Below the pieces are notes generated by a model that was not told where the DNA came from, did no database searches, and saw nothing but the letters and a program-made list of their open reading frames with translations. The position numbers were made by a program, and so were the translations under genes. A stretch of DNA of 64,000 nucleotides, taken from contig NZ_QEXL01000002.1 in assembly GCF_003311635.1 (NCBI RefSeq), forward strand, positions 1 through 64,000, in the 5' to 3' direction. Origin of the DNA: Novacetimonas cocois (lineage in GTDB: Bacteria > Pseudomonadota > Alphaproteobacteria > Acetobacterales > Acetobacteraceae). Positions 454-33,996 of this stretch are shown here, piece after piece. Numbering within the stretch: position 1 is the first letter of the stretch; each line of letters opens with the position of its first letter.

Positions 454-1590
454 GTGCCACGCGTTATTTTTCCTTATATCGGGCATCCGCATCAGGTGTT
501 CCATTCATTGCCCATCGCACTTGAAATGGCGATCCGCCATCCAGAGACAGAAGTGCATCTGGCCAGCCTGACAGAAAAACGCGAAGCCCAACTGCAATCC
601 CTGGCCAGATTCTATCCCGAAGCACGCGTACATTATGACCTGCTGAAACTGCCCCCGCTCCTCCGCAGGAAGATCGACCGGCATGGCCCCCAGCCACTCG
701 ACAAGATACTGACCCTCTTTTTAAACAAAGAATATTTCCGAAAGTTTCAGGCAATTGTCGTTCCTGAACGTACCAGCCTGTATCTGCGCCGCATGGGGGT
801 TCACGCCCCAAAATTGGTCTGGACCCGCCACGGCGCGGGGGATCGCGCGGTGGGTTTTGCCAAGGATGTCCGGCACTTCGATTACATTCTTCTTGCCGGA
901 AGCAAGGTCGAACAGCGCCTGATGGAACATGGGAGCCTGCGGCCGGGCCATTACCGGAATGGAATTTATGCAAAATTCGACCTGGTCCGGCGCATGAATA
1001 TTCAACGTGAACCGCTGTTCCGGAACAACCGTCCGACCGTCCTCTACAATCCGCATTTCAGCCGCCACTTGTCATCATTCCCGAAATTCGGCATTCAGAT
1101 ACTCGATTATTTTGCACGACAGCAGAAATACAATCTGGTTTTCGCGCCGCATTTCAGGATGTTCGACGGTCATCGCGCCCGGGCCCAGCGGCTGTTTGAT
1201 CCCTACCGGGACTGTGGACACATGCTATTCGATCCAGGTAGCGAGAAAAGCATCGACATGACTTATACCATGGGGTCCGACCTCTATATGGGTGATGTCA
1301 GCAGCCAGATCGCCGAGTTTCTAATCACGCCGCGTCCATGCCTGTTCCTGGATGCGCATGCGACCCAGTGGCAGAATAATCCCAACTATGCGAGCTGGAG
1401 CCTGGGAAACGTGATCCATTCCGTCACCGACCTGGGCCATGAAATCGACAGGGCATTTACGATGCAGAGCCAATTCCTCGACCGGCAGAAAACGTATATA
1501 AGCGATACGTTCGGTAGTGCCCTGCCGGGACCGACAGCTGCGACTGGTGCGAATTCAATCGTTGACTTTCTGAGGTCAAATGATCGATGA
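454..1590 (+). CDS. CDP-glycerol glycerophosphotransferase-like (TagB/TagF-type) protein
   Basis: 378 residues from a GTG start. The second half has the layout of the Glyphos_transf family, GT-B-like enzymes that move a phospho-alcohol from a CDP-activated donor: a YNPHFS segment near residue 195 and GSDLYMGDVSSQIAEFL near 275-290, the latter corresponding to the family's donor-site D-x-S-S motif with a following acidic residue. No signal peptide or membrane segment is evident, so it probably works at the inner face of the inner membrane. Its stop overlaps the next start (ATGA), implying co-translation with the fatty-acyl-AMP ligase and a link to sphingolipid head-group addition. The base composition is visibly more AT-rich than its neighbours, suggesting separate acquisition. 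The substrate is unknown; family assignment is moderate. Confidence 0.6.
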   Translation: MPRVIFPYIGHPHQVFHSLPIALEMAIRHPETEVHLASLTEKREAQLQSLARFYPEARVHYDLLKLPPLLRRKIDRHGPQPLDKILTLFLNKEYFRKFQAIVVPERTSLYLRRMGVHAPKLVWTRHGAGDRAVGFAKDVRHFDYILLAGSKVEQRLMEHGSLRPGHYRNGIYAKFDLVRRMNIQREPLFRNNRPTVLYNPHFSRHLSSFPKFGIQILDYFARQQKYNLVFAPHFRMFDGHRARAQRLFDPYRDCGHMLFDPGSEKSIDMTYTMGSDLYMGDVSSQIAEFLITPRPCLFLDAHATQWQNNPNYASWSLGNVIHSVTDLGHEIDRAFTMQSQFLDRQKTYISDTFGSALPGPTAATGANSIVDFLRSNDR

Positions 1591-3377
1591 CCAATTTTTC
1601 TTCATTCCAAGTTCTGCCTGTGGAAGTCACATTACCGGAAATGACACGTCTCCCGACCCCTACAGATTCTGGCCAGCCGCGACGCTACGGCGATTTCGAT
1701 ACCTTCCCGCAGGCGCTTGATTACGCCGCACAGGGCGAAAGCGGTTTCAATATCTATTCGGGTCGCGGTGAACTGCTCGAAGCCCTGCCTTACCGTGTCC
1801 TGCGTGAGCAGGCGCGGGAAGTCGCGAAACGCCTGCTGTCGCTGGGGCTGCAGCCGGGGGACCGGGTTGCGATCGTGGCGGAAAGCGACGGTGATTTCGC
1901 CCGGATTTTCTTCGGCTGCCAGTATGCGGGCCTGATCCCGGCCCCCCTGCCACTTCCGGTGGCGTTCGGGGGACGTGAAGGTTATATCGCAACCCTGCGT
2001 GGCATGGTGACGGGCGCCGATGCCTCGGCCGTGGTCATCGCCTCCATCATCGCCTCGTGGAAGGATGACCTTACCAAAGGGCTGGACCTGAAGTTTGCTG
2101 GGGTGCCCGAAGACCTGCTCGCGACGCCGATTACGGTTACCGACCTGCCCGAGGTCGGCGCGGACGACATTTCCTATCTTCAGTTTTCATCCGGCAGCAC
2201 GCGCTTCCCCATGGGCATCGCGGTGACGCAGCGTTCGGGCATGGCCAATGCGCACGCCATCGCGCTCAACGGCCTGAAAGTGCGTGAAACCGGTGATCGC
2301 TGCGTTTCGTGGCTTCCGCTTTATCATGACATGGGACTGGTCGGTTTCTTTCTGACCCCGATGACCTGCCAGTTGAGCGTCGATCTGCTGCCGACCCGTG
2401 AATTCGCCCGCCGTCCCCATGTCTGGCTGGACCTCATCAGCCGCAACAGGGGGACCATTTCCTACAGCCCCTCCTTTGGTTACGAGTTGTGCGCCCGCCG
2501 CGCGACGTCGATTTCCCTCGACCTGTCCTGCTGGCGCGTGGCCGGGATCGGGGGGGACATGATCCGCTACCATATCCTGGAAGATTTCGCCGAACGCTTC
2601 GCCGCATCGGGGTTCGACAGCCGCGCTTTCACTGCCAGCTATGGCATGGCGGAAACCACGCTTGCCATCAGTTTCGTGCCGCTGGGTTCGGGGATCCAGA
2701 CCGATACGATCGACCTGCGCGTTCTCGAGACACAGGCCATCGCCTCGCCTTCCAACGATCCGTCCCAGGTACTGCGCACGTTCGTGATCTGTGGGGAAGT
2801 GCTGCCGGAACACGAACTCGAAATCCGCGACAGCAATGGCAAGGTGCTTGACGACCGGAAGCTGGGGACGATTTTCGTGCGCGGCCCCAGCCTGATGCAG
2901 GGCTATTTCCGCCAGCCACAGGAAACCGCCAAGGTGCTGGATGCGGATGGATGGCTCAATACGGGCGATCTGGGCTATATGCTGAATGGACAGGTTGTCA
3001 TTACCGGTCGCGCCAAGGACCTGATCATCATCAATGGCCGCAATATCTGGCCGCAGGATCTGGAATGGTCGGCGGAGACGGAAATTTCTTCCCTCCGCAG
3101 CCGTGACGTGGCCGTTTTCTCGGTCGATGAAAATGAAGGGGAAAAGATCGTGGCCTTGGTGCAGTGCCGGGCCACCACCCCCGAAGCGCGGGAAACCCTG
3201 CGCAATGAGACCGTGAACCTGTTCCGCCGTCAGCATGGCGTCGATGTTTCGGTCATCCTCGTGCCGCCGCACACCCTGCCCCAGACTTCGTCGGGCAAGC
3301 TGACGCGGGCACGGGCCAAGGCGATGCTGCTGTCTGGCGCGTTCAAGCCGATCGACACCACCATTTCCGTCGCCTGA
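1587..3377 (+). CDS. Fatty-acyl-AMP ligase / acyl-ACP synthetase of the sphingolipid locus
   Basis: 596 residues of the ANL adenylating superfamily. The phosphate loop reads SSGSTRFPMG (residues 201-210). The Arg, and the loss of the usual Lys, in this loop is typical of fatty-acyl-AMP ligases rather than acyl-CoA synthetases. WLPLYHDMGLVG, the C-terminal hinge KDLIIINGRN and the catalytic-lysine region SSGKLTRA are also present. It should activate a long-chain fatty acid with ATP and load it onto a carrier protein. An ACP gene and serine palmitoyltransferase follow, matching the Caulobacter scheme in which a dedicated acyl-ACP synthetase charges a dedicated ACP for sphingolipid synthesis. 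It overlaps the upstream gene by 4 bases. The exact acyl chain is not predictable. Confidence 0.85.
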   Translation: MTNFSSFQVLPVEVTLPEMTRLPTPTDSGQPRRYGDFDTFPQALDYAAQGESGFNIYSGRGELLEALPYRVLREQAREVAKRLLSLGLQPGDRVAIVAESDGDFARIFFGCQYAGLIPAPLPLPVAFGGREGYIATLRGMVTGADASAVVIASIIASWKDDLTKGLDLKFAGVPEDLLATPITVTDLPEVGADDISYLQFSSGSTRFPMGIAVTQRSGMANAHAIALNGLKVRETGDRCVSWLPLYHDMGLVGFFLTPMTCQLSVDLLPTREFARRPHVWLDLISRNRGTISYSPSFGYELCARRATSISLDLSCWRVAGIGGDMIRYHILEDFAERFAASGFDSRAFTASYGMAETTLAISFVPLGSGIQTDTIDLRVLETQAIASPSNDPSQVLRTFVICGEVLPEHELEIRDSNGKVLDDRKLGTIFVRGPSLMQGYFRQPQETAKVLDADGWLNTGDLGYMLNGQVVITGRAKDLIIINGRNIWPQDLEWSAETEISSLRSRDVAVFSVDENEGEKIVALVQCRATTPEARETLRNETVNLFRRQHGVDVSVILVPPHTLPQTSSGKLTRARAKAMLLSGAFKPIDTTISVA

Positions 3378-3596: not shown

Positions 3597-3848
3597 ATGA
3601 GTGAAACGGTAGCGGACGTCTCGGCCATCATTGTGCAGACACTGCTGGCGAACCCCAAGGTTCCTCGCGATATCAATGGCAGCAGCAAGATCGTCGAGGA
3701 TCTGGCTTTCGATTCACTGGCCGTCATGAACTTCGTGATGGAAATCGAGGACAAGCTTGACGTTTCCGTTCCGCTGGACCGGCTGGCGGATATCCGCACG
3801 ATCGACGATCTGGCGGCCTGTATCGTGTCACTCAAGCAGGCGTCCTGA
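3597..3848 (+). CDS. Specialised acyl carrier protein for sphingolipid synthesis
   Basis: 83 residues with one carrier-protein domain. The phosphopantetheine site is FDSLAVMNF, with the attachment serine at residue 40. It differs from the housekeeping AcpP in this window (16773-17012, DSLDTVEL). An AAGGAT ribosome site lies just upstream of the ATG. Only 5 bases separate it from the serine palmitoyltransferase gene and it follows the acyl-AMP ligase, so it most likely carries the acyl chain from that ligase to the palmitoyltransferase, as AcpR does in Caulobacter. The 219 bases between the ligase and this gene hold only a possible 46-codon frame (3454-3594) of doubtful reality. Confidence 0.88.
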   Translation: MSETVADVSAIIVQTLLANPKVPRDINGSSKIVEDLAFDSLAVMNFVMEIEDKLDVSVPLDRLADIRTIDDLAACIVSLKQAS

Positions 3849-3853
3849 TCCGC

Positions 3854-5065
3854 ATGTCCATCTTCTCGAAATATGAAGGCCTGTCGCATTCGCTGTCCAG
3901 CATCACGGCCGACGGGGGACGCAATCCGTTCGACGTGGTGATCGAACGTCCGATCTCCTCCACGGTGGGCCTGATCGAAGGGCGCGAGACGCTGCTGTTC
4001 GGCACCAACAACTATCTCGGCCTGAGCCAGTCGCCCGCGGCGATCGAAGCGGCGGTCGAAGCGGCACGCAAATATGGCGTGGGGACGACCGGATCACGCA
4101 TCGCCAACGGCACGCAGGGCCTGCACCGTCAGCTGGAAAGCCGGCTGGCCGCTTTTTTCCGTCGCCGCCACTGCATGGTGTTTTCGACGGGATACCAGGC
4201 GAACCTGGGCACGATTTCTGCGCTGGCGGGCAAGGATGACTTTCTGCTGCTCGATGCCGACAGCCATGCCAGCATCTATGACGGCAGCCGTCTGGGCCAT
4301 GCGCAGGTGATCCGTTTCCGTCATAACGATGCCGATGACCTGCACAAGCGCCTGCGCCGCCTCGACGGCAGGCCGGGGGCCAGGCTGATCGTGGTGGAAG
4401 GCATCTATTCCATGATGGGCGACGTGGTCCCGATGGCGGAGTTCGCGCAGGTGAAGCGCGAAACCGGCGCATGGCTGCTGGCCGATGAAGCCCATTCCGT
4501 GGGCGTGATGGGCGAGTATGGGCGCGGCGTTGCCGAGGCGGACGGCGTGGAGGATGACATCGACTTCGTTGTCGGCACGTTCTCCAAGAGCCTTGGGACG
4601 GTCGGGGGATACTGCGTTTCCAACCATGACGGCCTGAACCTCATCCGCCTGTGTTCGCGTCCCTACATGTTCACCGCCTCCCTCCCGCCGGAAGTGATCG
4701 CAGCCACCATGGCGGCGCTGGATGAGCTGGAAAACCGGCCGGAACTGCGCCATCAGCTGATGGACAATGCCCGTCGGCTGCATGCGGGGCTGAATGCCGC
4801 GGGCCTGCGCACCGGCCCGCAGGCAAGTCCTGTCGTTTCCGTCATCCTTGATGATGTGGGTCAGGCGGTCGCTTTCTGGAACCGGCTTCTGGATCTGGGG
4901 GTGTATGTCAACCTGAGCCTGCCGCCCGCGACACCGGACCAGCATCCGTTGCTGCGCACCTCCGTCATGGCAACGCATACGCCGGCCCAGATCGATCAGG
5001 CCGTCAGCGTCTTTGCCGCCGTGGCCGGGGAAATGGGGATCAATCGGGCTGCTGTTTCCGCCTGA
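3854..5065 (+). CDS. spt: Serine palmitoyltransferase (alpha-oxoamine synthase)
   Basis: 403 residues, the normal size for a soluble bacterial serine palmitoyltransferase. This PLP enzyme condenses L-serine with a long acyl thioester to give 3-keto-sphinganine. Visible signatures are the PLP lysine in GTFSKSLGTVGG (Lys245), the cofactor-stacking His138 in DADSHASIYDG, and DEAHSVGVMG (Asp211, His214). AONS-family relatives (KBL, BioF, HemA) share these residues. The neighbouring dedicated ACP and acyl-AMP ligase, rather than biotin, haem or threonine genes, favour Spt. The 3' end overlaps the convergent Tam41-like gene by 26 bases with no visible terminator. Confidence 0.88.
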   Translation: MSIFSKYEGLSHSLSSITADGGRNPFDVVIERPISSTVGLIEGRETLLFGTNNYLGLSQSPAAIEAAVEAARKYGVGTTGSRIANGTQGLHRQLESRLAAFFRRRHCMVFSTGYQANLGTISALAGKDDFLLLDADSHASIYDGSRLGHAQVIRFRHNDADDLHKRLRRLDGRPGARLIVVEGIYSMMGDVVPMAEFAQVKRETGAWLLADEAHSVGVMGEYGRGVAEADGVEDDIDFVVGTFSKSLGTVGGYCVSNHDGLNLIRLCSRPYMFTASLPPEVIAATMAALDELENRPELRHQLMDNARRLHAGLNAAGLRTGPQASPVVSVILDDVGQAVAFWNRLLDLGVYVNLSLPPATPDQHPLLRTSVMATHTPAQIDQAVSVFAAVAGEMGINRAAVSA

Positions 5066-6017
5066 AAAAGCCTGCCTGCCGCAGCGACCATAACAGGTGT
5101 GGCAGGCAGATGAGGGGATGGCGTTCGGCAAAAGGGGACAGCGGCAGTTCGATGCCGGAATGCCGCTTTATCTTCCACGCGATGTAGCGCGCGCCGCCCG
5201 TAAAGGTAAACGCGGCCTTTGCCAGTCGCGCGATGTTCAGCGGACGCCCCGCCTTCTGCCGCAACCACCAGCCCGCGTGCATCCGCTCCCGCCAGGCCGC
5301 GTCCGTCCGGGGCACGAGCATGTCGCCATGCTGATCGAAAGGCAGTCCGTCCGCGCGCCACGCCGCCGTCAACAGCGCTGCGTAACGGGCTTCCTTCCCT
5401 TCGACAAGGGCGCGCGGACGCTTGCGGCTGCTTTCGACCCGCAGTTCCGCGCCATAGGTATTCGAAAAAAGCGCGTTCCAGAATTCGTCCGCCCGTCCCT
5501 CGCGCGGGCCCAGCGCCATGGCCCATCGCGCCGCCATGCCCACCGCCCGGATCAGGCAGCCAAGAATCGCGTCAGCCGCATCGGGGCCACTGACCCAGAC
5601 AAGCCGCACGGGCTGGCAGAACCGGGCCCAGATCGTCGTATCCAGCGTCCTGCGGCCTGTCATGTGCCGGAACTGCTCCAGCGTCAGGATCGCGACCTTG
5701 GCCCGCAGGGTGCGCCCGTTGACCGGCAATTCATGATATTCCACGTTTGGCGGCAGCAGCCGGTTGGCCGTCCGCGCCCATCCACCGGCGGGCCAGTCGG
5801 ACAGGCGCCGCACGATGACATAGAAATCCAGCACCCCATCCATGTCCGGCTGGCGCAGGGCCGAACCATAAAACAGCACGCCCATCGGCTGCGCCGCGCC
5901 AATCATGCCGGTCACGAAGGCCGTGATTTCCACCGGAACCGGCTGAACCAGCTCGGATGCCAGCAGATGGGCGATCTGGCCGCCGGCGCTGTCGGGTCGT
6001 GCGTTCATCTTGTCCAT
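5040..6017 (-). CDS. Tam41-like lipid-phosphate cytidylyltransferase (putative)
   Basis: 325 residues. The N-terminal half follows the order of the mitochondrial CDP-diacylglycerol synthase Tam41/Mmp37: FYGSAL (residues 49-54, the nucleotidyltransferase G-S motif), LDFYVIV (63-69, the acidic residue in an L-D-F context), VNGRTLRAKVAILTLEQF (99-116) and TIWARFCQPVRLVW (128-141). These parallel Tam41's Y-G-S, M-x-D-F, K-Y-G-V-I and L-Y-x-A-G-R-x-x-K-P-V segments. Tam41 uses CTP to convert phosphatidate to CDP-DAG. The start ATG shares one base with the stop of the upstream lipid kinase (TGATG), so kinase and cytidylyltransferase are translationally coupled and probably act in sequence. The substrate could be phosphatidate or ceramide-1-phosphate; that part is inference. 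Confidence 0.6.
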   Translation of the reverse strand: MDKMNARPDSAGGQIAHLLASELVQPVPVEITAFVTGMIGAAQPMGVLFYGSALRQPDMDGVLDFYVIVRRLSDWPAGGWARTANRLLPPNVEYHELPVNGRTLRAKVAILTLEQFRHMTGRRTLDTTIWARFCQPVRLVWVSGPDAADAILGCLIRAVGMAARWAMALGPREGRADEFWNALFSNTYGAELRVESSRKRPRALVEGKEARYAALLTAAWRADGLPFDQHGDMLVPRTDAAWRERMHAGWWLRQKAGRPLNIARLAKAAFTFTGGARYIAWKIKRHSGIELPLSPFAERHPLICLPHLLWSLRQAGFFRRKQQPD

Positions 6018-6994
6018 CAGGCCTGAATGAAATCAATGGGCGGCGTCACCGAAAGGTAGGTCACGCCATCGGGTCCGGAATCGAGGACTTCGCCATCAAG
6101 GACGAAATCCTCCTTCATTTCCAGCCGGATCCGCATGGCGCATCCGCTGTCATAGGCGCTTTCGTTCCTCAGCCACTGGGGCACGCGCCCCCGCAGCAGC
6201 GACGTGACCGCCGCGGTCAGCCGGGGCGGCATGCCCGCGACATCCAGATAACGGATGCCATCATCGTGCGATTCGGCCCCATGCCAGAAGGGCCACACGC
6301 CATAAGGCAGGCTCTGCAATGTGGTCGCCAGGAACAGGAAACAGTTCTCCTGCCGCGCGGGGGCATCCCCCACCGTGATCGACAGGCGGTCGCCCTGTGT
6401 CCATTCACGCCTGAAGCGTCGTGACAGCAGATGCGCAACGGACGATCCCAGCGTCACCACCACCGCCATTTCATGGGAATACCGGTCCAGGATCTGGGGC
6501 TGGTGCGCCAGTTCGATGGCGCGCCGGAACGCGGCCGTGCCATGGAACATTCCCACGACGGGCGTGCGCTGCGGGTCGCTCCAGCTGACGACAAGGCCAC
6601 GGCGACGACGGATGTTGCGCCGCATGCCCCCCCCCAGCGCAAGCTGGTTCAGACGGACCAGCGCCTCCATCCCCCGCAGCCCGAAACCGACGTCGCCCGC
6701 GATCAGGTTGGTATTGCCCGACGGCAGGAGCGCCAGCGCGGGCAGCCGGTCGGGACGATAATATCTGTGAATGGCGCTGAGCACATCGCTCAGCGTGCCG
6801 TCCCCCCCGTCAACGACGATGCACTGGACATCGCGGCGCGCCAGTTCCTCTACCTGATGGAGCAGCTCTGCCTGTGACGCGGGCGAGAGGAAATTTTCCC
6901 CCAGCGACTGCCGGGCCATCATGCTGTAATGTTCGTTCCCGCTCCGATTCCGCCGACTGCGCGGATTATGAATGATGACGAAGCGTGCTGTCAC
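6017..6994 (-). CDS. DAGK-family lipid kinase (possible ceramide or diacylglycerol kinase)
   Basis: 325 residues from a GTG start at 6994; a TTG at 7006 is in frame but lacks a ribosome site, whereas GGGAT precedes the GTG. The diacylglycerol/sphingosine kinase catalytic fold is shown by the nucleotide loop VVDGGDGTLSDV (GGDGT at about 63-67), the following PSGNTN (about 91-96, the family's P-x-G-T-x-N position) and an N-terminal INP-like IIHNPRSRRN. Such kinases phosphorylate a membrane lipid hydroxyl with ATP. The location beside spt and the coupling to the Tam41-like gene suggest ceramide or diacylglycerol as acceptor; Caulobacter has a ceramide kinase of this broad family. It is transcribed divergently from the metallophosphoesterase operon. 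Confidence 0.75.
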   Translation of the reverse strand: MTARFVIIHNPRSRRNRSGNEHYSMMARQSLGENFLSPASQAELLHQVEELARRDVQCIVVDGGDGTLSDVLSAIHRYYRPDRLPALALLPSGNTNLIAGDVGFGLRGMEALVRLNQLALGGGMRRNIRRRRGLVVSWSDPQRTPVVGMFHGTAAFRRAIELAHQPQILDRYSHEMAVVVTLGSSVAHLLSRRFRREWTQGDRLSITVGDAPARQENCFLFLATTLQSLPYGVWPFWHGAESHDDGIRYLDVAGMPPRLTAAVTSLLRGRVPQWLRNESAYDSGCAMRIRLEMKEDFVLDGEVLDSGPDGVTYLSVTPPIDFIQA

Positions 6995-7174
6995 GGATGA
7001 TCCCAATCGTTTAGAAATTTGACGTACGGGCCATAAGCAACCATCTGCCTTTTATTGCAAGGCACGAAAACCCGCCTCCCCCCGACATTATGCCTGTCGG
7101 GATGGCCCGATCCGGCCAGCGCAACGCCTGTATGCAAAGCCCGCTTGGCGCATCCATGATGCTTCCAGAGGAAA
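6995..7174. promoter_or_regulatory. Divergent intergenic region between lipid kinase and metallophosphoesterase operon
   Basis: About 180 bases between two divergent transcription units, locally more AT-rich than the flanking genes. It must hold the promoters of the kinase/Tam41 pair (leftward) and of the five-gene operon (rightward). A TTGCAA hexamer with a TTATGG hexamer 18 bases further on can be read toward the kinase, but this is weak. AGAGGA at 7167-7172 is the ribosome site for the GTG start at 7175. Confidence 0.35.
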
Positions 7175-8092
7175 GTGCCTTTGATCGACATTACACTTGC
7201 ACACGCCTCCGACCCGCATCTGACGATGGACAGTCTTCATATCCGTCCGCGTGATCTTCTTAACAAACGCGCGCTGAGCTACCTCTCGTGGCAGAGGCGG
7301 CGGCGGCGCCATCAGGCACGGACGTTGCAGCGGGTCATGGACGACATCATCGCCCATGATGTCGACATGCTGGCGCTGACGGGGGACCTGACCAATCTCG
7401 GCCTGCCGGATGAATGCGCGCAGGCGGCCCGGTGGCTGTCGCGCCTGCCGATGCCCGTCACTGTCATTCCGGGCAATCATGACGCGCTTGTCCGCAGCGA
7501 CTGGCACGAGACGATCGGCCGGTGGAGCGCGTGGATGGGGCCCCTGCCCTTTCCCTATATCCGCCGGATCGGGCCGGTTGCCCTGATCGGCGTCAATTCG
7601 GCCCATCCCACGCCATGCTTCTGCGCGGCGGGAAGCATCGGGGCGCGGCAGTGCGCGCGCCTTGCCACGATCCTGGATGAAACGGGACGCCAGGGACTCT
7701 ACCGCGTCATCATGATCCACCATCCGCCGCTGGCGCGCCTGACGACGCCACGCAAGTCCCTGCGCGACGCGGACGGGTTCGCTGCATGCATCGCACGCAA
7801 TGGGGCCGAGCTGGTACTGCATGGACATACCCATGTCTCCACCCAGACGACCATGCCCGGCCCCGTGGGGCCCGTGCCGGTGGTGGGGGTGGCGTCAGCC
7901 TCCGCCTGCGTGGCTGATCCCGCGCGCGCGGCGTCATGGAACCGGGTGCGCATCTCGACACTGCCGGATGGCTATCGCACCGAAATCACGCGCCGCATCA
8001 TCCTGCCGGGGGAAGCCCCCCTCGGCACGCCGCCAATTATTTTCACGGCGACTGCTGCATCACCGCGTCTTTCGGGTATAAGCAGCCCCTGA
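7175..8092 (+). CDS. Metallophosphoesterase (calcineurin-like)
   Basis: 305 residues, GTG start with AGAGGA just upstream. The full metal-ligand set of the calcineurin-like family is present in order: ASDPHL (D-x-H), LTGDLTNLG (G-D), IPGNHDAL (G-N-H-D), IHHPPL (H) and LHGHTHVST (G-H-x-H). It should be a two-metal phosphomonoesterase or diesterase. It is the first gene of a run in which every junction overlaps (its TGA shares a base with the ATG of the LptF-like gene), so a role in the same lipid pathway is likely, for instance dephosphorylating a lipid phosphate or cleaving a nucleotide-linked lipid. Sequence alone does not set the substrate. Confidence 0.8.
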   Translation: MPLIDITLAHASDPHLTMDSLHIRPRDLLNKRALSYLSWQRRRRRHQARTLQRVMDDIIAHDVDMLALTGDLTNLGLPDECAQAARWLSRLPMPVTVIPGNHDALVRSDWHETIGRWSAWMGPLPFPYIRRIGPVALIGVNSAHPTPCFCAAGSIGARQCARLATILDETGRQGLYRVIMIHHPPLARLTTPRKSLRDADGFAACIARNGAELVLHGHTHVSTQTTMPGPVGPVPVVGVASASACVADPARAASWNRVRISTLPDGYRTEITRRIILPGEAPLGTPPIIFTATAASPRLSGISSP

Positions 8093-9330
8093 TGAACGTT
8101 CCGCCATTCATGCACCGCTGTTTCCGGGGATTGGTGCCCGGGACGCTGGATCGTTACCTGCTGCAGCAGGTGGTGCCACCATTTTCCATTTCGCTGGGCG
8201 TGGTCATGGCGGCCCTGCTGCTGGAACGGCTGCTGGCGCTGTTTAACATGCTGGCCTCCAACGGCAGTTCGATGAAGACGTTCCTGGCGCTGCTGACGGA
8301 TCTGGTGCCGCATTACCTTGGCCTCGCCCTGCCGGCCGCCATGTGCGTCAGCGTGTTTTCCGTCATCCGGCGCATGAGCCAGAATCACGAAATCGACGCC
8401 CTGATGGCCAGTGGCGTCTCGATGTTCCGTATCGCGCGGCCCTTCATCATCGTGGGAACGATCCTCGGCGCGCTCAGCTTCTCGCTTTATGGCTTCATCC
8501 AGCCCTATGCGCGGTATGACTACCGCTCGGCGCTGTATTTCGCCAGTCACAGCGGCTGGGCGCCGCACCTGCAGTCCCACATGTTTGCAGCACCATCGCG
8601 CGATCTGATGCTGACGGCGGAAAAGGTCGATGACGCGGGGTCGCGCCTGTTCACGGTCTTTATCCGCGACAACAGCAGCCATGAGGTGACCCGCTACATC
8701 ACCGCGCGCAAGGGATACCTGTATATCCCGAACAATGAAGAAAAGATCCGCCTCGACCTGATTGACGGGACGATCATCACCGACCGGCATGACAAGAGCC
8801 CGTCCATCATCCATTTCGACCATACGACCGAGCTGTTTTCGCCCCACGGCCAGCTTGACAAGATGCAGGCCAACCGCAGCCGGGGACAGACGGAACGTGA
8901 ACTGACGCTGCCTGAGCTGTATCACGACATCCGCCATGGCATGCCGGGGATCAAGCATTCCTATCTGGTCGCGGAACTGCATTTCCGCCTTGCGCGCACG
9001 ATCGCGATTCCGTTCATTCCGTTCCTTGCCTGCGCGCTGGCGATCATGGCTAAACGGCAGAAACGCAGCATCGGCCTGCCGATCGCCGCCGTTACGCTGG
9101 TGGGCTTTGACCACACGTTGCAAATGGGTCTCAGTCTTGTCGCGAATGTCCACATGTCGCCACTGGTGGTGATCTGGCTTCCGACGCTGATATTCGCCCT
9201 GGGCTGTGTCGAAACGCTGGTCTGGCGCTGCGGAGGACTTCGCGTCCTGCTCATGGCGCCGCATCCTTCTTCGCAACGCGTCCTGTCGCCTGACGGCCTG
9301 CCGACGCGGACGCAGGATTCGCATCCATGA
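8092..9330 (+). CDS. lptF: LptF-like permease (YjgP/YjgQ family)
   Basis: 412 residues using the ATG at 8092, which overlaps the upstream stop (TGATG). The frame stays open further upstream but that part lies inside the phosphoesterase gene. Topology fits LptF/LptG: hydrophobic segments near the N-terminus (about 25-50, 70-85 and 115-135), a large periplasmic beta-jellyroll-type domain, then three C-terminal membrane segments (about 300-385). In E. coli LptF and LptG form the membrane part of the LPS extractor with LptB. This pair sits inside a sphingolipid locus rather than beside pepA or lptD, so it may be a second copy devoted to sphingolipid export. No lptA, lptB or lptC lies in the window. 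Confidence 0.8.
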   Translation: MNVPPFMHRCFRGLVPGTLDRYLLQQVVPPFSISLGVVMAALLLERLLALFNMLASNGSSMKTFLALLTDLVPHYLGLALPAAMCVSVFSVIRRMSQNHEIDALMASGVSMFRIARPFIIVGTILGALSFSLYGFIQPYARYDYRSALYFASHSGWAPHLQSHMFAAPSRDLMLTAEKVDDAGSRLFTVFIRDNSSHEVTRYITARKGYLYIPNNEEKIRLDLIDGTIITDRHDKSPSIIHFDHTTELFSPHGQLDKMQANRSRGQTERELTLPELYHDIRHGMPGIKHSYLVAELHFRLARTIAIPFIPFLACALAIMAKRQKRSIGLPIAAVTLVGFDHTLQMGLSLVANVHMSPLVVIWLPTLIFALGCVETLVWRCGGLRVLLMAPHPSSQRVLSPDGLPTRTQDSHP

Positions 9331-10448
9331 AACTGAAGGGAAAGACGATACGCCTGCTGCCCGGCGGCCGCGTGCTGGTGGGCTATCTGACCCGGGAACT
9401 GCTGGGCAAGATTTTCGCCACCGCCGCGGTCATCATCGCGCTGATGGAGGTCCTGGCGCTTCTGGAACAGGTGACGGAAATCATGGGCCGCCATCTGGGC
9501 CTGTCCGGCGTGCTGTATTACGCCGTGATCCGCCTGCCGCTGCTGTTTGGCAATGCGATGCCGCTGGCGGTCCTGATCGGGGCGCTGATCACATTGCTGC
9601 AGCTGACGATCTCGAACGAGATTTCGATCCTGCGCGCCGCCGGCCTTTCGACGCCGGGCCTGTTCCGCCTGTTCCTGCCCGCGATACTGGGGTTGGGGGT
9701 TTTGTGCGTAGTGGTGGACGATCAGGTCGTCCCGCGCAGTGAAATCGCGCAGGCACGGTGGTGGAACGCCACGAATCCCTCCCCCACCGGGGTTTCACGC
9801 GATGTCTGGTTCCGCACCGGCATGACGCTCGTCAACATTCAGGGCATCGCGAAGGGAGGGCGCGAACTGCATGACGTGACCCTCTATCGCCGCGATAACG
9901 ACGGCCAGGTGGAAAAGGTCCTCCACCTGCCCAAGGTCAGCTATTTCATCAACAGATGGAGCGGATATCCCGACCATGTCCTGACGGTCATCAGCCCCAC
10001 GCGCGTGGAACAGCTTGATACCGGTTCCGACACGCGCCTTGTGCTGGACTGGCCGCGGACGCTGACGCCGGATCTGGTCCTGCAGCTGGCGCTGGATACG
10101 CCACAGTCGATTCTGACCATGATGCAGGTGCTCGACAATGATTTTCCTTCCAGCCAGTCCCCTGCATTTTTCATGACCGAAATACTGGGTCGTATCATGT
10201 TACCCCTGACATTTACGGTTATGCTGTTATTGGCCATCCCGGTGGTTTATATCCCCCCGCGGGCCGGGACACGCAGCTGGCTGCCAATATGGTGCCTGGG
10301 GGCAGGTCTGCTGTTTGTCGTATTCCAGGGATTGTTGCGGGCCTTGGGCAATGCCGGTACGCTTCCCTCTCTGGTGGCGGTTTTTGTCGGGATCGTAATT
10401 TTCATTCTCGGCGTGGTGACAGTGCTATTGAGGATTGAAGAACGATGA
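9327..10448 (+). CDS. lptG: LptG-like permease (YjgP/YjgQ family)
   Basis: 373 residues, starting inside the end of the LptF-like gene (ATGA overlap at 9327-9330). Hydrophobic segments near residues 25-45, 65-90 and 105-130, a soluble middle of about 150 residues and three more membrane segments at the C-terminus (about 275-370) match LptG. With the preceding gene it should form a heterodimeric extractor that lifts a lipid from the inner membrane when driven by LptB. Its own stop overlaps the hydroxylase gene start by 4 bases, tying the transporter to a lipid-modifying enzyme. LPS itself remains a possible cargo. Confidence 0.8.
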   Translation: MKLKGKTIRLLPGGRVLVGYLTRELLGKIFATAAVIIALMEVLALLEQVTEIMGRHLGLSGVLYYAVIRLPLLFGNAMPLAVLIGALITLLQLTISNEISILRAAGLSTPGLFRLFLPAILGLGVLCVVVDDQVVPRSEIAQARWWNATNPSPTGVSRDVWFRTGMTLVNIQGIAKGGRELHDVTLYRRDNDGQVEKVLHLPKVSYFINRWSGYPDHVLTVISPTRVEQLDTGSDTRLVLDWPRTLTPDLVLQLALDTPQSILTMMQVLDNDFPSSQSPAFFMTEILGRIMLPLTFTVMLLLAIPVVYIPPRAGTRSWLPIWCLGAGLLFVVFQGLLRALGNAGTLPSLVAVFVGIVIFILGVVTVLLRIEER

Positions 10449-11227
10449 TTACCAGTACCCTGAAGAACACATCCATCCGGACGGGGCGCAGCTTCGATCT
10501 GGGGAAGATGAATCTTCGCCAGCTGTGGATCGCCTATCTGACCTATCCGACTATCCTGCTCTACGTCGCCCTGGCGGCGGGAAGCTTCGCGGTCATGGTC
10601 CATACCTTCGTATCCTGGCTGCCGGTCGTTATCAGCATCCTGTCGGTCGTCCTGGTCTATCCGCTGGTCTGGTACGCCATCCACCGCTTCATCCTGCACG
10701 GACGCTTCCTCTATCGCCTGAAAATGACCTCCGCCCTGTGGAAGCGCATTCATTTCGACCATCATCAGGACCCGCACCTGCTGGATGTCCTGTTCGGCTC
10801 CCCGCTGAACACCATTCCCACCATCGCGATCGTCACCATTCCCATCGGCTTTGCCATCGGGCAGATCGCAGGTGCCGCCGCCGCCTTTGGCGCGGGGCTT
10901 ACGATCACCTGCATCTATGAATTCTTTCACTGTATCCAGCATCTCAACTACAAGCCGAAGATGTCATGGATCCAGCGGATGAAGCAGCGTCACGTGCTGC
11001 ATCACTTCCACAACGAAAACGGCAATTACGGCATCACCAGCTTCGTCGCCGACCGCCTGTTCCGCAGCTATTACGTCGACGCCAAGAGCTGCACGCGCAG
11101 CCCCAGCGTCTTCAACCTGGGATACGATCAGGACGAGGCGAAGCGTTACCCGTGGGTCATGGACCTGACGGGATCGCCGCCGCGTGACCGCCCCGATGGC
11201 GCGAATCCCAACCGGAACGCTGCATGA
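10445..11227 (+). CDS. Fatty acid hydroxylase-superfamily membrane enzyme (candidate ceramide hydroxylase)
   Basis: 260 residues, a di-iron membrane hydroxylase. The histidine clusters are HRFILH (80-85), HFDHH (103-107), HCIQH (162-166) and HVLHH (183-187), the spacing used by sterol desaturase/fatty acid hydroxylase proteins. Membrane segments lie at about 35-55, 58-80 and 125-155. Acetic acid bacteria are reported to contain a 2-hydroxypalmitoyl dihydroceramide, so 2-hydroxylation of the amide-linked acyl chain is the attractive assignment; C4 hydroxylation of the long-chain base is the alternative. It overlaps lptG and the nucleotidyltransferase gene by 4 bases on each side. Regiochemistry is inference. 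Confidence 0.8.
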   Translation: MITSTLKNTSIRTGRSFDLGKMNLRQLWIAYLTYPTILLYVALAAGSFAVMVHTFVSWLPVVISILSVVLVYPLVWYAIHRFILHGRFLYRLKMTSALWKRIHFDHHQDPHLLDVLFGSPLNTIPTIAIVTIPIGFAIGQIAGAAAAFGAGLTITCIYEFFHCIQHLNYKPKMSWIQRMKQRHVLHHFHNENGNYGITSFVADRLFRSYYVDAKSCTRSPSVFNLGYDQDEAKRYPWVMDLTGSPPRDRPDGANPNRNAA

Positions 11228-12006
11228 CCGATATTCCGGGGCTTGACGTCCTTATCCTTGCCGGCAGCCGCCGGGGGGTGCGCGACCCCATGGCGCAGGC
11301 GGCCGGCATTTCGCACAAGGCCCTTCTTCCCGTCTGTGGGCGCCCGATGATCACCCGCGTATGCGATGCCCTGATGCAGGTGCCGGGGCTTGGGAAAATC
11401 GTGGTGTGCATCGACGATCCCGACGTCCTGCGTGGCGCGGTGCCACCATCCGTCACCTTCATCCCCGAAGCGGCAGGCCCGAGCGCAAGCGTCATGAACG
11501 CGCTTGCCACGCTTGGCGCGCCCCTGCTTGTCACGACCGCCGATCATGCGCTCCTGCGGCCGGAATGGGTCGAGTCCTTCATTGCCGATTCCACGCGCGC
11601 GCAGTGCGACATGTCTGCGGGCATCGCACTGGAAGGCGCCATCGCCCGCGACGTGCCCGACACGAAACGCACGATGATCCGTCTGGCGGATGGGGCATTT
11701 TCGGGATGTAACCTGTTCTTCCTGCGCACGCCCGCGGCGATGTCGGTCCTGAAGCTGTGGCAGCGGCTGGAAAATGACCGCAAGCATCCGCTGCGCATGG
11801 CCCGCCTGCTGGGCCCCGGCATCCTGCTGCGCTTTGTCCTGCGCCGTCTGACGCGCGCCGCCCTGTGCCGGCGCATCGGCCGCCTGACGGGCGCGCGGGT
11901 CGGGCTTATTCCCATTGATGACGGACGCGCCGCCGTGGATGTCGACAAACCGGCGGACCTGGAACTGGTGACCCGCCTGATCGGACGGGACACGGCGGCA
12001 GCCTGA
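11224..12006 (+). CDS. MobA-like NTP transferase domain protein
   Basis: 260 residues with the GT-A-type nucleotidyltransferase fold. The start carries VLILAGSRRG and, after about 20 residues, HKALLPVCGRPMITRV, the pattern L-A-G-G-x-(x)-K-x-L-L-x-x-x-G-x-P-M seen in MobA, IspD and sugar-phosphate nucleotidylyltransferases. VTTADHALL corresponds to the metal-binding acidic position and DVDKPADLEL to the C-terminal D-V-D-T-P-x-D motif of this group. It is the last gene of the overlapping operon. It could charge a phospho-alcohol or sugar phosphate with CTP or UTP for a lipid head group, perhaps serving the CDP-alcohol-type transferase at 454-1590. Molybdopterin guanylylation is unlikely in this context. 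Confidence 0.7.
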   Translation: MTDIPGLDVLILAGSRRGVRDPMAQAAGISHKALLPVCGRPMITRVCDALMQVPGLGKIVVCIDDPDVLRGAVPPSVTFIPEAAGPSASVMNALATLGAPLLVTTADHALLRPEWVESFIADSTRAQCDMSAGIALEGAIARDVPDTKRTMIRLADGAFSGCNLFFLRTPAAMSVLKLWQRLENDRKHPLRMARLLGPGILLRFVLRRLTRAALCRRIGRLTGARVGLIPIDDGRAAVDVDKPADLELVTRLIGRDTAAA

Positions 12007-30486: not shown

Positions 30487-30530
30487 CCGGCCCGTCACGA
30501 AACGGGCCGGTCCCATCCCTTATTTTTTGG
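30487..30530 (+). terminator. Intrinsic terminator after the SulP gene
   Basis: A 9-bp perfect stem (30487-30495 with 30502-30510) has a 6-base loop and is followed by a pyrimidine-rich stretch ending in TTATTTTTT. It lies 7 bases after the SulP stop codon and separates it from the convergent lipoprotein gene. Confidence 0.7.
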
Positions 30531-31422
30531 CAGTGGTTTTTGTCGCGCCCGTGCTGTCCGCATCAGGTGTTGCGAACGGGTCGGGCATGCTGGCGGAACC
30601 TGCCAGCTTGCGCCACGTATCGGCGTTCTGCGTGTCGCCCTCTTTCTGCGCGCTCTGGCTGGCGCGCATGTACAGGTCGGCTGCCTGCGCCGCATTGCCA
30701 AGGCGGCTTGCGGCACGCGCCGCAACACTCAGCCCCCGCGCCATGTCACGATATTCAACATGCGTCTGCCGTGCGGAAACCGCCTGCATCGCGTCCTGAT
30801 ACGCGCTCTGGGCGTCGCCCCCATCCACCAGAAGCTGGCGCGCCGCGATTTCCTGCCCATCCGCCAGCATCGCCCAGCCTGATGTCCTGGGCAGCTTGGC
30901 GAAATAGGACGCGACACTGTCAAGGGTCGTCCTGTCGCCACGGGCATCGGCAATGATGCCTGCCAGAAGCTGCGCCTTTTCCACAATGACGGGATCGCTG
31001 GCGCTGGAGGCCGCACTTGCGCTGGTTGCGGCCTCGTCAAGGCGGCCGAGCCGGTAAAGGGCGCCCGCCTGAACAAGGTCAAGCCCGGTATCATCCGTTT
31101 TCGCGCCGCGCACCGACAGCGCCGCACGCGTGGAGGCAATGGTGGACAGCGCGTCCTGCATCCGGTTTTCATCCAGCTGCACGACGGCAAGGTTATAGCC
31201 GGCATCCCCGATGGCGGTCACGTCATCACGCGCCAGCGCCCGCACGCCCGCCGCGCGATACTGCCCCTCCGCCACCGACAGGCGGTCCATATCCACCGCG
31301 TCGCGCCCGGTATCCATGTCCTGCGACAGGGTGCCATCGGTCGGGGCCTGCACGCTGGAGCCCCCCCCGCAACCGGCCAGCAGGACCAAGAGTGCCGCTG
31401 ACGCCAGATAGCCCGCCCGCAT
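30520..31422 (-). CDS. Helical-repeat (TPR-like) lipoprotein of the Mla-type operon
   Basis: 300 residues starting MRAGYLASAALLVLLAGCGG, a lipoprotein signal with lipobox LAGC. The start shares one base with the stop of the MlaD-like gene (TGATG). The mature part is Ala- and Asp-rich alpha-helical sequence with repeats reminiscent of TPRs (for example YNLAVVQLDENRMQDAL and AGALYRLGRLDEAA), ending in a Lys/Thr tail. Its place at the end of the operon suggests an envelope partner of the lipid transporter, where other bacteria have MlaC/MlaB or an auxiliary lipoprotein. No catalytic motif is visible. Confidence 0.7.
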   Translation of the reverse strand: MRAGYLASAALLVLLAGCGGGSSVQAPTDGTLSQDMDTGRDAVDMDRLSVAEGQYRAAGVRALARDDVTAIGDAGYNLAVVQLDENRMQDALSTIASTRAALSVRGAKTDDTGLDLVQAGALYRLGRLDEAATSASAASSASDPVIVEKAQLLAGIIADARGDRTTLDSVASYFAKLPRTSGWAMLADGQEIAARQLLVDGGDAQSAYQDAMQAVSARQTHVEYRDMARGLSVAARAASRLGNAAQAADLYMRASQSAQKEGDTQNADTWRKLAGSASMPDPFATPDADSTGATKTTAKK

Positions 31423-32378
31423 CACGGCTGCACCTTCTGCGGCGACAGTCGCCCATGAGTCTTGGTCGGCGTGCCGTGACCACCCAGTATCCATAGTCCA
31501 CGCAGCTGATCCACCAGCTGCTGCAGGCTGTGCGCGGTCGACTGCGCCTGCACCAGAAGGACCGGCAGCTGCTGGCTGGTTTCGTTCAGGTTCTTCGTGA
31601 TGCCCGGCAGCTGGGGCGAGGCAGCGCGCAGGTCGCCCGTTGCTTTCTGTACATTGGCCATGCTGGCATCGGCCTTCTTCATGACTTCGGACAGCTGCCC
31701 TTCGATCGGGGTCAGCTGAGAGATCGTGGCGTTCAGGGTGGTGATCGCCCCTTCCGCCTGACGGATCAGTTCATCATTCGTCATCAGGCGGCCAATCGAT
31801 CCCTTGCCCGCATGCATGTCGGAAATCGTGGCATCCATCGTCGCCATCATGTGCTGGGCATTGTCCAGCACCGGCATGATGCGCGCGCGGATATCGGCAA
31901 AGGTCTGGGTGATCGTATCTGCCGGATTGGGCGCGTTGGTGGCGTTCAGGACGGCATAGCTCCAGTTCAGCTTCTCCCCCGTGCCGCGGGAGATATCGAT
32001 GTAGCTTGCGCCCGCCACCACGAACTGCCGCCGGATTACCGCCGTGCTGTCGCGACGGATATAGGGTTCGATGTCGGGATCGACTTCGGCAATCGCATAC
32101 ATCCCGCCCGACGGATTGATCCGCACGCGGCGCACCGTGCCGGCATGGATGCCCATGACCTCCAGGTTATCGCCGACCGACAGGCCACCCACCCCATTTT
32201 CCGGCAGAACGATCCGCAGCTTTCCCGCCGGCGTCAGCCAGTTGCGCAGGACGCCCGCCTCCAGCACCGCGCCAAACAGGATCAGCAGCGAAAAGAGGAC
32301 AAGAACACCAACCCATTCATCCGCATAGCGGACACGGACAAGCTGACGGATTCCATAGGATTGTTGTTTCTGTGCCAT
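31422..32378 (-). CDS. mlaD: MlaD family (MCE domain) protein
   Basis: 318 residues from the ATG at 32378, overlapping the upstream stop by one base (TAATG). One N-terminal membrane anchor (about 20-42), then an MCE domain with GGLSVGDNLEVMGIHAGTVRRVRI, the typical hydrophobic-G-x-x-V-x-x-I pattern, and DPDIEPYIRRDSTAVI. The last 130 residues are helical, probably coiled coil (TLNATISQLTPIEGQLSEVMKK). It should form the hexameric periplasmic ring of a lipid ABC transporter with the MlaE-like permease encoded two genes upstream. Confidence 0.85.
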   Translation of the reverse strand: MAQKQQSYGIRQLVRVRYADEWVGVLVLFSLLILFGAVLEAGVLRNWLTPAGKLRIVLPENGVGGLSVGDNLEVMGIHAGTVRRVRINPSGGMYAIAEVDPDIEPYIRRDSTAVIRRQFVVAGASYIDISRGTGEKLNWSYAVLNATNAPNPADTITQTFADIRARIMPVLDNAQHMMATMDATISDMHAGKGSIGRLMTNDELIRQAEGAITTLNATISQLTPIEGQLSEVMKKADASMANVQKATGDLRAASPQLPGITKNLNETSQQLPVLLVQAQSTAHSLQQLVDQLRGLWILGGHGTPTKTHGRLSPQKVQP

Positions 32379-33073
32379 TATATCACCCGCATGGGGAAAA
32401 GACCTTCGTCGAGAAGGCGCATATGAATGTTCACCGCCTTGCGATAGACGCTCCATGATGAGGTATGCCGCGTCAGCCACACCACGCCGCATCCCCGGTC
32501 ACGCGCCGCGGTCAGCGCCTCGAGAAACGGCAGCACCATTTCCGATGGCAGCATATCGGATATGTCCTCCAGAACAAGGAGGTCAGGCCGCCCCATGAAG
32601 GCACGCACACAGGCCGCGCGCGCCAGATCGGCGGTGGACAGGCGATCGGGCGTACTGATCGGCAGGCCGGGAAAACCGAAGGCTTCCCCCAGCTGCGTTG
32701 CGTTGGCGACCACGTCCTCGAAACTGTCGGTGGTGTGATACAGCTGCTGCATCATGATGTTGATATGGGTGCCTAGCATGTTCACCCATCCCCCCGCGCG
32801 CGGGATGCGGCCGATCCGGCCACGCAGGGCATTGAGCTGCCGGTCCGCAAGGGTGTTCCATTCCAGCCCCATGAAACGGCACGTCCCCTGCGACAGGGAC
32901 ACCATGCCCGAACACAGGTCGGCGAACATCGCGGCACGGCCGGAATCACGACATTCGATAATCGCGCAGTCGCCAGGCATCAGCCGGAAATCATACGGGG
33001 CGGGCATCAGGCCCGTTTCCTCGAACGAGGGGACAACCTCGCGCATTTCCAGAAGGGGTGCGTTTGCCACCAT
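32378..33073 (-). CDS. MlaF-like ABC ATPase subunit with degenerate nucleotide-binding motifs
   Basis: 231 residues, the normal position and length for MlaF between mlaE and mlaD. Alignment by eye to E. coli MlaF keeps the fold but not the chemistry. The Walker A GPSGIGKTT is replaced by ECRDSGRAA (residues 40-48, Lys to Arg46, Thr to Ala47). The signature LSGGM becomes LSTAD (145-149). Walker B Asp-Glu becomes Glu169-Asp170, and the Q-loop Gln is not kept. ATP hydrolysis therefore looks impaired or lost. Neighbouring mlaE and mlaD look intact and reading frames overlap or abut, so this is not a decayed gene but probably a structural pseudo-ATPase. Confidence 0.7.
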   Translation of the reverse strand: MVANAPLLEMREVVPSFEETGLMPAPYDFRLMPGDCAIIECRDSGRAAMFADLCSGMVSLSQGTCRFMGLEWNTLADRQLNALRGRIGRIPRAGGWVNMLGTHINIMMQQLYHTTDSFEDVVANATQLGEAFGFPGLPISTPDRLSTADLARAACVRAFMGRPDLLVLEDISDMLPSEMVLPFLEALTAARDRGCGVVWLTRHTSSWSVYRKAVNIHMRLLDEGLFPMRVI

Positions 33074-33075
33074 TG

Positions 33076-33996
33076 TCAGAAATCCAGCATGAACAGGATG
33101 TTGACCACCATGATGAGCATGATGCCACGGGCGAAACCACGCGGCATCAATGTCGCGATCGTATCATTGCTGCTGACAGTCAGGCCGGAAATGCACGAGC
33201 CCAGCCCGACGAAGAACCCGACCAGCAGGAATTTGAGGGGAATGATAAGGTAATCCCACGTTGTCATCGCCCCCAGCACGTTGAAGAAGAAGGTCCAGAC
33301 GGACGACGTGATGGCGCCATTCGCATGCGCAACGACAAATCCCATCAGCAGCGAGACCAGCGCGAAGATCATCCCGAGCGCGAAACCGCCCAGCGTAAAG
33401 GCAAACGTCCGCGGCATCACCAGCGTAAGGAACGGATCGAGCCCGCGTGCCTGAAGCGCCCGGACCTCCCCATTGAGGACCATCAGCCCGATTTCCGTAA
33501 GCGACAGCATGCCGCTGCGGCCAAGCAGGATGATCCCCACCAGGATGGGCGTGATTTCACGCACCAGCACGGATACAAGGATGGACCCCGTCATCTGCGC
33601 CATGCCGGCAAAACCCAGCCAGTACGCGGCCTGCGACACGACCATCAGTCCCGCCAGCGTTGCGGTGACGACCGTGCTGATCAGCCCGCCGCTGAGGACC
33701 TGCCGCAGACAGACGCGGAATTCATGGACAACCGGCCTGCGCCACGAATTGGGGCGCATGCTTTCGCGGAAGGTGCCCCACCCCGCGCCGATCAGCATCA
33801 GGGTAAAGCGCACCTGATGCCGCGCGAACCGGCCTATCGCCGCAAGCCACGGCGCGACGCGCACCATCAGCCGCACAAGCGGCGGGGCCTCCTGCGTGGA
33901 AGTGACGACGGTACCGGCCGGCGCGGCCTCCTCCGGCGGAGGCGCGGCGGGCGGACCCGCCGGCACATCTTTCGTAGGGGGATCGTTCTGGGTCAT
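33076..33996 (-). CDS. mlaE: MlaE family lipid ABC transporter permease
   Basis: 306 residues. A Pro/Ala-rich N-terminal tail of about 45 residues precedes the MlaE domain with around five hydrophobic segments. The family motifs are LVREITPILVGIILLGRSG and EIGLMVLNGEVRALQARGLDPF, followed by MPRTFAFTLGGFALG. It forms the transmembrane core moving phospholipid between membranes together with the MlaD-like ring. Its start overlaps the stop of the sensor gene by 4 bases (ATGA). Confidence 0.9.
   Translation of the reverse strand: MTQNDPPTKDVPAGPPAAPPPEEAAPAGTVVTSTQEAPPLVRLMVRVAPWLAAIGRFARHQVRFTLMLIGAGWGTFRESMRPNSWRRPVVHEFRVCLRQVLSGGLISTVVTATLAGLMVVSQAAYWLGFAGMAQMTGSILVSVLVREITPILVGIILLGRSGMLSLTEIGLMVLNGEVRALQARGLDPFLTLVMPRTFAFTLGGFALGMIFALVSLLMGFVVAHANGAITSSVWTFFFNVLGAMTTWDYLIIPLKFLLVGFFVGLGSCISGLTVSSNDTIATLMPRGFARGIMLIMVVNILFMLDF

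Follow-up and report, generated by a model that had tools for sequence, protein, structure and literature searches.

The route by which bacterial sphingolipids reach the outer membrane has been stated to be unknown (PMC11324152). For Caulobacter crescentus, CC_1156 and CC_1155 were named LptF2 and LptG2 by Padilla-Gomez et al. 2024 (PMC11324152), and a role in the selective transport of (phospho)sphingolipids was proposed for them; the idea of an Lpt pair for sphingolipids is therefore already published, as a proposal for Caulobacter. The contacts described for LptB2FG (PMC5548808, PMC6744409) were used here as the reference for the permeases of lipopolysaccharide (LPS). For acetic acid bacteria, the presence of ceramides has been reported (PMC8268314). 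This paper focuses on a stretch of 64,000 nucleotides from the acetic acid bacterium Novacetimonas cocois (Acetobacteraceae; assembly GCF_003311635.1, contig NZ_QEXL01000002.1, positions 1 to 64,000, referred to as the window), and in particular on an operon of five genes at 7175-12006 which contains an lptF/lptG pair. The products, LptF2 and LptG2 (8092-10448), very probably form a second Lpt-type permease pair serving as a dedicated sphingolipid extractor on the shared Lpt machine, where we infer the cargo, the direction, the use of the shared bridge and the head group from the comparisons presented below. Added to the earlier proposal are the co-occurrence in family and class, the natural experiment provided by relatives without LPS, the clade split, a residue switch, the linkage to a hydroxylase and a second recruitment. 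No study testing LptF2G2 was found in the literature searched, which largely excluded subscription journals and preprints.

The five genes of the operon belong to the metallophosphoesterase, LptF, LptG, FA_hydroxylase and MobA/CofC-like nucleoside triphosphate (NTP) transferase families, with Pfam E-values of 9e-15 or better:

7175..8092, plus strand: metallophosphoesterase, first gene of the operon, at the position of Caulobacter CC_1158 (PF00149, E 7e-17)
8092..9330, plus strand: LptF2 permease of the sphingolipid clade (PF03739, E 8e-58; clade A, ultrafast bootstrap (UFBoot) 100)
9327..10448, plus strand: LptG2 permease of the sphingolipid clade (PF03739, E 8e-53; clade A, UFBoot 100)
10445..11227, plus strand: FA2H/SCS7-like di-metal membrane hydroxylase (PF04116, E 3e-20)
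11224..12006, plus strand: MobA/CofC-like nucleotidyltransferase, at the position of Caulobacter CC_1153 (PF12804, E 9e-15)

An initial annotation of the window had proposed that this pair is a dedicated extractor for hydroxylated sphingolipid which possibly borrows LptB, a view that would not have held for the only lptFG pair of the genome. Two lptFG pairs were identified, the other one being located at C1:185962-188159 beside lptD, surA and pepA, the usual place for these genes. LptB is present in a single copy (373 bits against a cut-off of 240, with the next ABC protein at 147 bits), and the second pair would therefore have to share it, as had been suggested. LptC, identified by a Pfam search far from the cluster, and LptD are likewise single. 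The genome contains LpxC and is thus that of an LPS maker.

The two pairs are distinct in phylogeny. In broad trees for LptF and for LptG, each with 89 rows, the window pair and all pairs of its type linked to serine palmitoyltransferase (SPT) were separated from the housekeeping pairs linked to LptD. In careful trees of 45 rows, with support given as bootstrap/SH-aLRT, the window clade obtained 100/100 for LptF and 100/98 for LptG, and the alphaproteobacterial housekeeping clade 100/100; the LptF proteins of Phenylobacterium and Caulobacterales fall into the window clade. A third clade, also consisting entirely of SPT-linked pairs (100/99 for LptF, 98/93 for LptG), contains some Acetobacteraceae, Nitrospirillum, Gammaproteobacteria and Nitrospirota. 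Since two separate clades are linked to SPT, LptFG pairs thus appear to have been recruited to sphingolipid clusters independently, at least twice. The loci of the third clade are L039, L040, L042, L052, L114, L135, L166, L204-L206, L211, L213, L217-L219, L221 and L229; it occurs also in Thermodesulfobacteriota and is not derived from the alphaproteobacterial SPT-linked clade. In one genus with small genomes (L048 in G116 and L054 in G029), the stretch from kinase to hydroxylase is present without phosphoesterase, LptF2 and LptG2, and a pair of the third clade is located elsewhere in the genome, an apparent replacement.

The presence of a second pair follows that of SPT. In a sample of 150 genomes of the family, 48 were scored as SPT-positive at 53% identity or more (E <=1e-127), and the remaining 102 showed at most 40% identity (E >=1e-72), a clear split into two groups. 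At least four LptF/G hits were found in 47 of the 48 SPT-positive genomes and in 2 of the 102 SPT-negative ones (Fisher p 2.5e-35, uncorrected for phylogeny). All four genera with both SPT-positive and SPT-negative members were concordant, and the two SPT-negative exceptions (G056, G132) belong to one genus. At the G056 locus (L051), the cluster is conserved, with an SPT-like gene only 34% identical to the window SPT. Some Acetobacteraceae contain three or four LptFG pairs, with 8 hits in G037 and 6 each in G042 and G079.

The genomes without LpxC provide the natural experiment. The class-wide sample consisted of 337 genomes, 43 of them with SPT; all LptF/G candidates were scored in the SPT-positive genomes, and up to 5 candidates per genome in the wider class-wide counts. 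LpxC is absent from 24 of the SPT-positive genomes of the class that were examined for it. Exactly one LptFG pair was found in 21 of these, an extra weak hit in G391 and no pair in two. In 16 of the 22 LpxC-less genomes with a pair, the distance to SPT is about 15 kb or less. Outside the family, two pairs were found in 11 of the 12 genomes with both SPT and LpxC. The association between LPS loss and a single pair gave a Fisher p of 2.7e-7, uncorrected for phylogeny. The pairs of 21 LpxC-less genomes were placed in the trees (G391 included, G409 left out), and all fell into the window clade for both LptF and LptG. By this placement, the organisms without LPS have the predicted sphingolipid-type pair and not the LPS-type pair. 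Because these relatives keep only the window-type copy, its most likely task is to move sphingolipids in the direction of the outer membrane.

The same genomes bear on the possibility that LptF2G2 is a redundant or condition-specific exporter for another form of LPS, located in the sphingolipid cluster by chance. The fold and the catalytic contacts are those of LPS permeases, and LpxC is present in the N. cocois genome. However, an LPS exporter should be found only where LPS is made, whereas pairs of the window clade are retained in LpxC-less genomes which have none of the housekeeping type, and the presence of the pair tracks SPT rather than LPS. This explanation is highly improbable, and the residues at the lipid-contacting site speak against it as well.

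At the level of the proteins, LptF2 and LptG2 match PF03739 with 196.6 and 180.2 bits against a cut-off of 27.9, covering profile positions 1-348 and 2-353 of 353. The AlphaFold models, with pLDDT values of 80 for LptF2 and 88 for LptG2, contain the permease helices and the periplasmic beta-domain, and the best matches among PDB structures were LptF chains for LptF2 (E 5e-13) and LptG chains for LptG2 (E 1e-16). The cut-offs of the LPS equivalogs TIGR04407 and TIGR04408 were missed (185.6 against 230 for LptF2, 184.1 against 240 for LptG2), in line with a related but possibly different job. The residues for LptB coupling and the nucleotide loop (Y6, E84 and R292 in LptF; Y10, E88 and R301 in LptG) are conserved in all three clades with few exceptions. 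In contrast, the basic pair K40/K41 of LptG (E. coli numbering), a contact site for the 4'-phosphate of lipid A and for the inner core (PMC5548808, PMC6744409), is lost from the window clade. Among housekeeping proteins, a basic residue is present at position 40 in 33/35 and at position 41 in 34/35; the corresponding values are 3/63 and 5/63 for the window clade and 2/17 and 1/17 for the third clade, and the window LptG2 has T50/E51 there. At positions 29-30 of LptF, the window-clade proteins have E-R (61/63 for the first residue, 57/63 for the second) and the housekeeping proteins T-Q (27/35, 32/35). LptG K34 and R136, which are LPS-phosphate residues in E. coli, were uninformative as markers, being already absent from alphaproteobacterial housekeeping LptG.

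A sphingolipid extractor might also act without the LPS bridge, using an acceptor of its own, such as an LptC2-like or other periplasmic carrier, and an outer-membrane translocon. LptC2 adjoins the clusters of Caulobacterales (PMC11324152), and some SPT-positive genomes lack LptD entirely. However, LptC2 was identified only in loci of the Caulobacterales type; neither LptC2 nor a second LptD was detected in the family of the window (where the window contig ends upstream of the cluster), and LptD is retained in 22 of the 24 LpxC-less genomes. A separate bridge is thus unlikely. It is from the single copies and from the retention of LptD without LPS that we infer the sharing of LptC, LptA and LptD by LptF2G2.

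The nature of the cargo is also reflected in the hydroxylase. The protein carries the four histidine boxes HX4H, HX2HH, HX3H and HX2HH (HRFILH, HFDHH, HCIQH, HVLHH), and these histidines are conserved across 86 homologs. Its only sequence matches in the PDB are to yeast SCS7 (4zr0, 4zr1; E 2.4e-5), and it is a probable ceramide N-acyl hydroxylase. In Niveispirillum (L095, on the same contig as L151), the hydroxylase gene lies between LptG and a CerS-type GNAT protein, with overlapping starts; this gene order ties the hydroxylase to the acyl chain of ceramide. Export of another product of the cluster, for example a glycosylated or phosphorylated non-sphingolipid, with the hydroxylase acting on lipid A or another lipid, would agree with the flippase-like gene, and in one relative the glycosyltransferase gene, adjoining the cluster, and with head-group genes that are partly present. 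Such an explanation is improbable given the match of the hydroxylase to the ceramide hydroxylase alone among solved structures, the gene order in Niveispirillum and the strong prediction of the pair by SPT. Orthologs of the hydroxylase were found in 44 of the 150 family genomes, 42 of them SPT-positive. Five SPT-positive family genomes with two pairs have no ortholog, and clusters of the Caulobacterales type contain the pair without the hydroxylase. An extractor for hydroxylated sphingolipid only was therefore rejected: of the initial proposal, a second pair which is tied to sphingolipid synthesis across family and class and would have to borrow LptB is supported, and the specificity for the hydroxylated form is given up.

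Several points weigh against LptF2G2 as a sphingolipid extractor on a shared machine. The 24 LpxC-less genomes presumably make no LPS, as judged from the absence of LpxC. Two of them (G214, G426) contain SPT and neither LptFG nor LptD, so that another route exists; both genomes are 99-100% complete, and at the respective loci (L083 for G214) spt is followed by a phosphoesterase gene. Named look-alikes of L083 are L172-L178 (Reyranella, Enhydrobacter). Two genomes with both LPS and SPT (G021, G227) contain the housekeeping pair only, and the second pair is therefore not strictly required. Since Caulobacterales have their own LptC2, the sharing of LptC is not universal. E. coli tolerates K40E/K41E in LptG (PMC5548808), and the loss of the basic pair is for this reason suggestive, a marker of a changed head-group contact and no proof of it. 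Finally, the head group is uncertain, because CerS, CerR and CC_1159 are absent from the locus.

The initial annotation had noted that all boundaries in the operon overlap by 1 or 4 bases, and a sequence check gave overlaps of 1, 4, 4 and 4 bases. The junction of phosphoesterase and LptF2 reads TGATG, with the LptF2 start (MNVPPFMHR...) inside the phosphoesterase stop; ATGA with an overlap of 4 bases is found between LptF2 and LptG2, between LptG2 and the hydroxylase, and between the hydroxylase and the nucleotidyltransferase. The conclusion that this argues for stoichiometric expression could not be upheld. A 1- or 4-base overlap is possible in 14 of 41 co-directional neighbours within the window, or 10 of 37 outside the operon, and lptF and lptG overlap by 4 bases in the housekeeping pair of the same genome and by 1 base in E. 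coli. Being common among these neighbours and found in housekeeping lptFG, overlapping starts say little about stoichiometry and were dismissed as evidence for it. The conserved gene order is more informative than the overlaps. The order phosphoesterase, LptF, LptG, hydroxylase and NTP transferase was found again in 44 of the examined loci, and a phosphoesterase lies directly 5' of LptF in 64 loci. In the examined loci, a 4-base overlap is possible at 59 of 92 junctions from LptF to LptG, at 33 of 54 from LptG to the hydroxylase and at 29 of 52 from the hydroxylase to the NTP transferase.

The window begins at a contig end (C12; genome size 3.40 Mb), just upstream of the sphingolipid cluster in which the operon is located. 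The following genes precede the operon:

454..1590, plus strand: gene without annotation and without a Pfam match (homologs L154:4495-5646, L163:4498-5649)
1587..3377, plus strand: fatty acyl-AMP/ACP ligase at the AasR position (NF006624, 905 bits against a cut-off of 600)
3597..3848, plus strand: dedicated acyl carrier protein (ACP) at the AcpR position (reading frame MSETVADVSAIIVQTLLANP...LAFDSLAVMNFV)
3854..5065, plus strand: SPT (NF047599, 638 bits against a cut-off of 500)
5040..6017, minus strand: protein at the CC_1161/CpgC position, conserved beside SPT and kinase
6017..7006, minus strand: diacylglycerol kinase (DAGK)-type lipid kinase, by position a CpgB/CC_1160-like ceramide kinase (PF00781, E 2e-11)

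In Caulobacterales, the homolog of the gene at 454-1590 is located directly 3' of LptC2, at the CC_1167 position. An assignment of this gene as the Caulobacter phosphoglycerate transferase CC_1159 was ruled out, since the homolog follows LptC2 and no Pfam match was obtained; the CC_1159-like gene of relatives codes for a CDP-alcohol transferase and is located elsewhere in their cluster. For the protein at the CC_1161/CpgC position, no family was found at E 1e-3 in Pfam and NCBIfam profile searches. Its gene and the kinase gene overlap by 1 base, and in related clusters the lipid kinase adjoins SPT. The nucleotidyltransferase matches TIGR03552 (CofC) with E 8e-6, under the family cut-off. CerS, CerR, a CC_1159-like CDP-alcohol transferase, a CC_1157-like HIT protein and LptC2 are absent at this locus. 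The closest named clusters are all from Acetobacteraceae, namely Komagataeibacter swingsii (SPT 91%, hydroxylase 85%), Gluconobacter, Asaia and Acetobacter, and the cluster was also identified in named loci of Komagataeibacter, Gluconobacter, Asaia, Phenylobacterium and Niveispirillum. In one relative, a glycosyltransferase gene (L021:17751-18821) follows the NTP transferase and hints at a sugar-bearing head group there. In a small genome (L055, G126), SPT, kinase, LptF2 and LptG2 are all fragmented, by joint decay or by sequencing errors. Elsewhere in the window (30520-33996, minus strand), an operon of overlapping genes for MlaD/ABC ATPase/MlaE-type phospholipid transport was identified.

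From this gene content, the following pathway may be proposed. The sphingoid base would be the product of SPT, the acyl-ACP ligase and ACP, and the N-acyl chain would be hydroxylated by the FA2H/SCS7-like enzyme. A phosphate-bearing head group would be built by the lipid kinase and the phosphoesterase, together with the NTP transferase and the protein at the CC_1161 position. Hydroxylation and head-group building would come before extraction, the flippase-like gene upstream in relatives could supply the outer leaflet, and LptF2G2 would extract the sphingolipid using the common LptB, LptC, LptA and LptD. In a more general view, towards which the evidence tips somewhat, the Lpt machine would be a common chassis on which permeases can be exchanged: a single set of LptB, LptC, LptA and LptD would receive LPS via the housekeeping LptFG and sphingolipid via LptF2G2, LPS-less alphaproteobacteria would run the bridge on sphingolipid alone, and permeases would have been recruited at least twice. 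If LptF2G2 has the role proposed here, an extractor for sphingolipids is named and a genetic test becomes possible in acetic acid bacteria; it would be explained how alphaproteobacteria without LPS could form their outer leaflet, and the LPS bridge could carry another lipid class via two swapped permeases. The clade-specific residues offer a route to map lipid choice in Lpt permeases.

Compared with known systems, the hydroxylase resembles yeast SCS7 and the eukaryotic ceramide 2-hydroxylase FA2H in its hydroxylase domain with four histidine boxes, a sequence likeness of low identity, but it has no cytochrome b5 domain. The 2-hydroxylases described previously for Sphingomonas are P450s (PMC10002949). 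With the housekeeping LptB2FG(C) of E. coli, Klebsiella, Pseudomonas and N. cocois itself, LptF2G2 shares the fold, the beta-domain and the residues for LptB coupling and the nucleotide loop. However, the housekeeping LptFG proteins form a separate clade, their genes are located beside lptD, surA and pepA rather than spt, and in alphaproteobacteria their LptG keeps the basic 40/41 pair. The cluster CC_1168-CC_1152 of C. crescentus also contains a second LptF/LptG pair, a phosphoesterase (CC_1158), a CofC-like NTP transferase (CC_1153), a kinase and spt, a likeness based on the cluster and on named loci rather than on a direct comparison with CC_1156/CC_1155. While in the window an FA2H-like hydroxylase is encoded beside LptG, CerS is found in that place in Caulobacter, for which the hydroxylase was reported to be of the DesA type and to be located elsewhere (CC_0202).

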